From Bacteroidota bacterium (GTDB lineage: Bacteria > Bacteroidota > Bacteroidia > Bacteroidales > FEN-979): a DNA stretch of 33,730 nt. The notes under the pieces were generated by a model. The model searched no databases, was not told the origin of the DNA, and was given only the letters and a program-made list of their open reading frames with translations. Within the stretch, counting starts at the first letter, position 1. Every line of letters begins with the position of its first letter. Shown here piece after piece: positions 1 to 8,303 of the stretch. The position numbers and the translations under genes are program-made. Where the stretch lies: contig JAUZOW010000007.1 of the NCBI GenBank assembly GCA_030706225.1, positions 1-33,730 of the forward strand. The letters run 5' to 3'.

Positions 1-393
1 AAGAGCTTGTTCTCCGTTGTCGGGTTGAGAAACCAACAGGTTTTCCACATCCACCCCTAATTTCTGAGCATAAAACCTGTCGAATGCATGCTCTGCATCA
101 ATGAATGCAGCTATCCCCCCGTTTTTCTGAGCTTGAGCAATAGCATGAATCGCAAGGGTCGTTTTACCGGAAGATTCCGGGCCAAATATTTCAATCACAC
201 GACCTTTTGGTAAACCCCCGATTCCCAGTGCAAGATCCAGTCCGATAGATCCTGTAGGGATGACATCCACATTTTCAATGGCATTGTCACCAAGCTTCAT
301 CACAGTACCTTTTCCATAGGTCTTTTCAAGCTTGTCAAGCGTTAGTTGCAACGCTTTCATTTTTTCCTTGTTCACATCAGGATCTTTAGCCAT
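1..393 (-). CDS. recA: Recombinase RecA, N-terminal part (gene runs off the left edge)
   Basis: Reverse-strand translation from ATG at 393: [89 protein letters not shown]..., containing the RecA Walker A GPESSGKT. Not in the ORF track because it is open at the edge. Confidence 0.97.
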
Positions 394-7444: not shown

Positions 7445-8068
7445 TTGGACAATTATCCATCAAAAATATTAGAAAATGCAGTCAATGAACTGGCCAAATT
7501 ACCTGGAATCGGCAAAAAGACTGCATTACGACTGGCTCTTTACCTTCTCCGGCAGGATCCTGCTGAAGTGGAAGCTTTCGGTACGGCCATCATCAAGTTG
7601 CGTAACGAAATTCTTTACTGTAAAATATGCCATAATATCTCCGACGAGGAAATCTGCCCGATCTGTTCAAGTCCGAAGCGGAATGCAGCTATTGTTTGTG
7701 TTGTAGAGAATATCCGGGATGTCATGGCAATTGAAAATACGGGACAATTTCAAGGAGTTTACCATGTTCTCGGAGGAATCATTTCTCCGGTTGAGGGGAT
7801 CGGGCCGGATCAGTTAACTATTGACAAACTGGTCAACCGGGTCAGGGAAGGAACGATCAGGGAAATCATCCTTGCTTTGCCAACGACCATTGAAGGAGAT
7901 ACCACTAATTTCTATTTATATAAAAAAATAAAGGAATTCCCGGTTAAGATGACTGCCATTGCCCGAGGAATCTCCATCGGGGATGAGCTGGAATATACCG
8001 ATGAAGTAACGCTTGGACGGTCCATATTGAACCGGACTCCTTACGAAACGCTTCTTCCCGGCCGATAA
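7445..8068 (+). CDS. recR: Recombination mediator RecR (TTG start)
   Basis: [20 protein letters not shown] HhH, zinc finger [16 protein letters not shown], Toprim [16 protein letters not shown]...YHVLGG. Confidence 0.97.
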
Positions 8069-8072
8069 AAAA

Positions 8073-8303
8073 TTATCCGGCTTCGATTTCGAAAAGCTGA
8101 AGTTGTTTTGCTTTCACTACAGGAAAGGCAGGTTTGGCATCTTTATAGTTTTCCATCAGGGGCCGGATGGATTTCTTGATAACTTTTACCGGTGTTGTGC
8201 CTCTCATTCTGCAATAATTTTCCAGAGATTTTTTCTGGCCGGCAGTCAGCTTCAGTTGAACAGTTTTATAACGGACTGGCTTTCTTTTTTTGCTTTTACT
8301 CAT
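8073..8303 (-). CDS. Small basic ribbon-helix-helix-like protein with C-terminal QLQLF motif
   Basis: 76 aa; YKTVQLKLTAGQKKSLENYCRMRGTTPVKVIKKSIRPLMENY fits a beta-alpha-alpha RHH pattern; C-terminus KAKQLQLFEIEAG. ATGA start/stop overlap with glmM. Confidence 0.72.
   Translation of the reverse strand: MSKSKKRKPVRYKTVQLKLTAGQKKSLENYCRMRGTTPVKVIKKSIRPLMENYKDAKPAFPVVKAKQLQLFEIEAG

Follow-up and report, generated by a model that had tools for sequence, protein, structure and literature searches.

The small gene at positions 8073-8303 on the minus strand of the window, i.e., the whole analyzed stretch of 33,730 nucleotides, encodes a basic protein of 76 amino acids combining a ribbon-helix-helix (RHH)-like core with a C-terminal QLQLF motif predicted to bind the pocket of the sliding clamp DnaN. 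Judging from conservation, architecture, and context, the best explanation, which we consider likely, is a DNA-binding RHH dimer tethered to the sliding clamp. On sequence grounds, the replication machinery probably has in it a partner that has so far been overlooked. The translation of the minus-strand ORF (MSKSKKRKPVRYKTVQLKLTAGQKKSLENYCRMRGTTPVKVIKKSIRPLMENYKDAKPAFPVVKAKQLQLFEIEAG) contains 20 K/R versus 5 D/E residues, corresponding to a net charge of approximately +15, and it terminates in KAKQLQLFEIEAG with the chain end ...KQLQLFEIEAG. With homologues in the taxonomic family and the wider order, this ORF is a real gene. The features considered in the following are:

8073..8303, minus strand: gene of the small RHH-like protein (76 aa) bearing a clamp-binding-like motif at its C-terminus, from ORF translation and homologues
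8259..8303, minus strand: K/R-rich N-terminal arm, residues 1-15, preceding the predicted DNA-contacting strand, from alignments
8148..8264, minus strand: RHH-like core with a strand (14-20) and two helices (21-34 and 38-52), from AF2, profile matches to AvtR, PutA, CopG, and ORF56, and Foldseek
8106..8147, minus strand: linker (residues 53-66) whose sequence and length mostly vary among homologues, from homologue tails and AF2 pLDDT
8091..8105, minus strand: QLQLF motif, residues 67-71, predicted DnaN-pocket binder, from conservation and the consensus in PMC11139829
8300..9772, minus strand: glmM, upstream, with translational overlap (ATGA); start as listed for the ORF, the real one may be internal
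7445..8068, plus strand: recR, convergent neighbor with conserved synteny, separate transcript

The ATG of the small gene shares the letters ATGA with the TGA of glmM. On its other side, the 3' end of recR is only 4 bases away, and as both genes are convergent, they are not co-transcribed. The distance to ligA amounts to ~10.6 kb. At the left edge of the window (about 160-185, minus strand), the RecA Walker-A sequence GPESSGKT was observed in an ORF that continues beyond the window, as a truncated recA would. These positions, together with the ORF and its translation, agree with the initial annotation, which had described a strongly basic 76-aa ORF starting on the glmM stop with recR, recA, and ligA nearby, but had left out the strand.

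It had further been proposed to test whether the C-terminal QLxLF is conserved while the linker varies. Because the alignments A1 and A2 contain the tail, a tail-free profile (A4, core only) was built and searched anew to avoid ascertainment bias. This core-only profile yielded 165 distinct proteins, one of them cut off by a contig end and 164 complete, part of the latter coming from loci first fetched with tail-containing queries (window protein, A1, A3). The pattern Q[L/M/I]x[L/I/M][F/W/Y] is present in 162 of the 164 complete homologues, which share ancestry and hence do not represent 162 independent events. Entropies of the motif positions 1-5 are 0.00, 0.36, 2.70, 0.77, and 0.11 bits, with Q and F hardly changing and position 3 taking 11 residue types, while the linker mostly ranges at 2.7-3.7 bits except for the N just before the motif (1.01 bits; present in 131/162). 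Among the 162 carriers, 14-21 residues separate core and motif, with a single outlier of 35, and 0-56 residues follow the motif. Congruently, Q67, L68, L70, and F71 are among the invariant columns of the family alignment A1, in which the linker drifts, and the diverse alignment A2 retains the motif Q as its sole invariant and the motif F as its sole near-invariant column. No other part of the small protein is as conserved as the motif, and the refuting outcome named in the initial annotation, a QLxLF segment not conserved in orthologues, did not occur. The motif codons vary synonymously and are well mixed, showing that selection acts on the protein. Shuffled tails contained the motif in 0.725 of 162 cases on average (at most 5), and a proteome-wide background, estimated from long ORFs of the fetched loci, gave 8 of 1117 distinct long-ORF tails of the same DNA (0.7%), Pol IV and two GlmM fusions among them. 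The clamp-like motif in this family is far above chance.

A second motif was detected in ten homologues. Two clamp-like motifs in one tail were seen in the loci L105, L111, L103, L310, L113, L119, L123, L124, L130, L132, and L133, with the second copy in L119 (QLNLI) falling outside the strict pattern. The two loci L041 and L297 from one genus carry the tail KQIDLEEL, in which the final aromatic residue is missing and the motif is apparently lost or altered.

In PMC11139829, the canonical natural clamp motif is given as Q-phi-x-[L/M][F/L] with a tolerant position 3; QLxLF is listed there as the strongest class, QLDLF among the strongest peptides, and negative charge or a free C-terminus near the motif as favored. 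PMC4549789 likewise describes Q-L-x-L-F, often in C-terminal position. The sequence QLQLF at residues 67-71 fits the former consensus, and the D, E, or chain end found directly after the motif in 100 of 162 homologues agrees with the negative-charge preference reported in PMC11139829. The genome harboring the window encodes a DnaE1 with an internal QASLF and a Pol IV (DinB) with QINMF near its C-terminus. It contains one copy of DnaN, which matches solved clamps (best 8dt6) and retains TDAHKL and the C-terminal MPVM, the only pocket landmarks inspected; we take these regions to correspond to E. coli residues 172-177 and 362-364. Taking motif and clamp sequences together, the tail very probably binds DnaN. 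As a point against this, the AF2 model places a low-confidence helix at QLQLF, whereas clamp-bound motifs are usually extended. Lower pLDDT (about 62-74 for residues 51-70) and the variable linker, the two indications used here, suggest that the motif segment may be accessible.

As a separate observation, locus L249 (G000 C79; 1791-5997) encodes a Pol IV-like DinB that carries QINMF, and immediately after it comes a second polymerase of the DnaE type (about 1000 aa). A Bacteroidetes DnaE2B-PolY-RecA group has been described (PMC12926913), to which this pair may belong. Within the open-licence papers searched, we found none describing an RHH or CopG protein with the clamp, an absence that is no proof, and none on Bacteroidetes-specific sliding-clamp partners.

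For the core, AF2 predicted an extended arm followed by two confident helices (residues 21-34 and 38-52); confidence drops beyond residue 60. Profile matches in the PDB are mainly RHH proteins (AvtR, PutA, CopG-family, and ORF56; E 0.006-0.5); the top match, FD15, has a repetitive chain and was judged spurious. Foldseek matches are also mostly RHH (antitoxins, CopG, CdbA, and MatP); all of them have E values above 0.1 (best 0.16-0.19) and are individually weak, as is to be expected for a domain of this size. The assignment as a predicted ribbon-helix-helix is well supported, in line with the beta-alpha-alpha pattern suggested by the initial annotation, and by analogy with known RHH proteins the protein probably forms a homodimer. 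The K/R fraction over the first 14 residues averages 0.57 among homologues, and the lysine of the strand is near-invariant in the core alignment A4. We regard DNA binding by the RHH-like protein as highly probable.

In the proposed mechanism, each subunit of an RHH dimer would have a tail with a beta-clamp-binding motif at its end, which would dock in the hydrophobic pocket of DnaN. With one tail per subunit, the dimer would present two motifs to a ring with two pockets, and both pockets of one clamp ring could be engaged. Docking would tether the DNA-binding domain, which is basic, to loaded clamps and thereby to DNA that has just been replicated or is under repair. Most likely, the protein would act as a replication-coupled DNA-binding factor, following a logic like that of Hda, a clamp-bound initiation regulator, with a different fold; its specific assignment to regulation coupled with replication, or to the marking of new DNA, is tentative. 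The broader idea that, in Bacteroidales, an order-level clamp-tethered RHH family couples fork passage to the marking of DNA or the control of initiation, taking the place of Hda, SeqA, or YabA elsewhere, is doubtful.

Two readings mainly compete with the replication-coupled role, namely control of clamp occupancy and a conventional repressor. A regulator of clamp occupancy would compete with polymerases for the DnaN pocket, the RHH part only dimerizing or binding DNA weakly. Near-optimal QLxLF/QLDLF motifs (QLDLF in 47 of 152 distinct proteins), the small size, and tandem motifs in some members would suit such a competitor, but the strongly basic arm at the N-terminus and the strand lysine, which hardly varies, suggest that DNA contact matters, and we consider this reading unlikely. 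A transcriptional repressor, e.g., of its own glmM operon, would use the QLxLF tail for binding a non-DnaN partner or stabilizing the oligomer. Most RHH proteins act as repressors or antitoxins, the small gene is often coupled to glmM, and the N ahead of the motif is fairly conserved, too. However, the motif fits the clamp consensus at each position, including the free position 3 and the acidic or terminal flank, it is sometimes duplicated, and the variable linker length is unusual for a packed interface, making a repressor rather improbable.

The genomic context was counted over 152 distinct loci, with glmM immediately upstream in 95 and farther upstream in 13, and recR convergent in 83. In the family of the window, the ORFs of glmM and the small gene overlap or lie few bases apart, which suggests that they are translationally coupled there. 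In some genomes, the gene is located apart from glmM beside cysteine desulfurase-like, grpE/dnaJ-like, or other unrelated genes (assigned by eye), so that the link to glmM is common, yet not obligatory. The linkage to glmM or recR, whose conservation the initial annotation proposed to test, holds for a large fraction of the loci but not for genomes with unrelated neighbors. In L079, L108, and L119, the RHH gene directly follows a cysteine desulfurase-like gene (identity by eye), which in L119 separates it from glmM; an upstream glmM at a distance of 1.1-1.4 kb was seen in other loci, too. In L077 (429-2063, plus strand) and L078 (minus strand), a complete GlmM is fused in frame to an RHH protein with a QLNLF tail. 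The two loci represent two species of a single genus, and the fused ORF of 544 codons lacks an ATG, GTG, or TTG start where both parts meet.

Such arrangements bear on the idea that replication and the synthesis of peptidoglycan precursors are functionally linked via GlmM, for which the frequent adjacency with overlapping ORFs and the single-ORF GlmM-RHH-QLNLF fusion may be put forward. The gene is away from glmM in several genomes, though, and the fusion may have arisen by plain operon fusion via stop-codon loss, leaving this link very unlikely. The connection between replication/repair and cell-wall synthesis envisaged at the outset is not established, considering the frequent but non-universal glmM linkage and the convergent recR.

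Turning back to the candidate clamp-tethered protein, one homologue each was found in 36 of 37 genomes of the taxonomic family of the window, its own genome included. From the order, 295 genomes were sampled evenly and searched with the core-only profile, and 99 of them gave matches with E no higher than 0.01. Approximately 90 of these are strong (E about 1e-6 or better), spanning about 41 of some 120 families (counted by hand). Around two thirds of the genomes in the order are devoid of the gene, which is thus dispensable in many lineages. In 20 genomes without a convincing match, neither a replacement gene nor recR was detected in the 1.5 kb checked 3' of glmM (for the replacement gene, 19 loci were informative). 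Outside the order, samples drawn from the class and the phylum gave weak matches only, and none of the 24 inspected by eye had a Q-phi-x-phi-F tail; distant relatives at these levels were rejected, the matches being ordinary RHH proteins or chance. A scan of named genomes was run with profile A3, as the diverse alignment A2 was too diverse, and returned relatives nearly all labeled as MAGs of uncultured Bacteroidales or Bacteroidetes, with a few labeled Chlorobiota.

Scattered weak RHH matches were obtained in Pfam, NCBIfam, and PHROGs. The window protein scored 16.7 versus a cut-off of 21 bits for RepB-RCR_reg (PF10723), 17.7 versus 87 for PRK13702 (NCBIfam), and 15.1 versus 27 for DUF6290 (PF19807); with scores under the curated cut-offs, membership in these three was rejected. 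As no curated cut-off was reached in the three libraries, the family appears unnamed therein. Taken together, this appears to be an order-level family, found in about 41 families of the Bacteroidales, not seen outside this order in the samples searched, and without a name in the libraries used. The gene is mostly single copy and syntenic, and no phage, plasmid, or viral-contig copies of the family were found. An antitoxin of a type II toxin-antitoxin pair, suggested by best fold matches including the TacA, VapB, AtaR, and CopASO antitoxins, was rejected as extremely improbable, since the window holds no small partner or toxin gene adjoining, the neighbors are glmM upstream and recR convergent, and the mostly single-copy, syntenic gene has no mobile copies among those searched for.

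To our knowledge, replication control in Bacteroidota is poorly known, and few sliding-clamp partners specific to this phylum seem to be described. A conserved single-copy protein of 76 residues, easy to express and with a near-consensus clamp motif, provides a direct experimental handle. Moreover, a conserved motif set against a variable linker can expose clamp clients overlooked by family databases.

Compared with known QLxLF clamp clients (Pol IV, Pol III alpha, Hda, MutL, MutS, and transposases), the window protein likewise bears a short motif on a terminus or loop, and its family shares the acidic or C-terminal flank, as described in PMC11139829 and PMC4549789. Unlike these clients, it presents the motif on a small RHH core without an enzyme or ATPase domain, and no RHH-based clamp client is named in the accessible portions of reviews of clamp partners. 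The strand-helix-helix core is common to RHH proteins such as CopG, Arc, MetJ, TacA, and PutA, but in place of a toxin-binding tail there is a conserved clamp motif. A weak likeness over the RHH core (E 0.0026-0.0072) connects it to RepB-RCR_reg/PRK13702, the CopB/RepA2-like plasmid replication regulators, whereas the window gene is chromosomal and without plasmid context. Hda/HdaA and YabA are clamp-linked regulators of DnaA. Unlike them, the window protein has no AAA+ domain or other homology, but it possibly follows a common logic, that of a regulator docked on the clamp.
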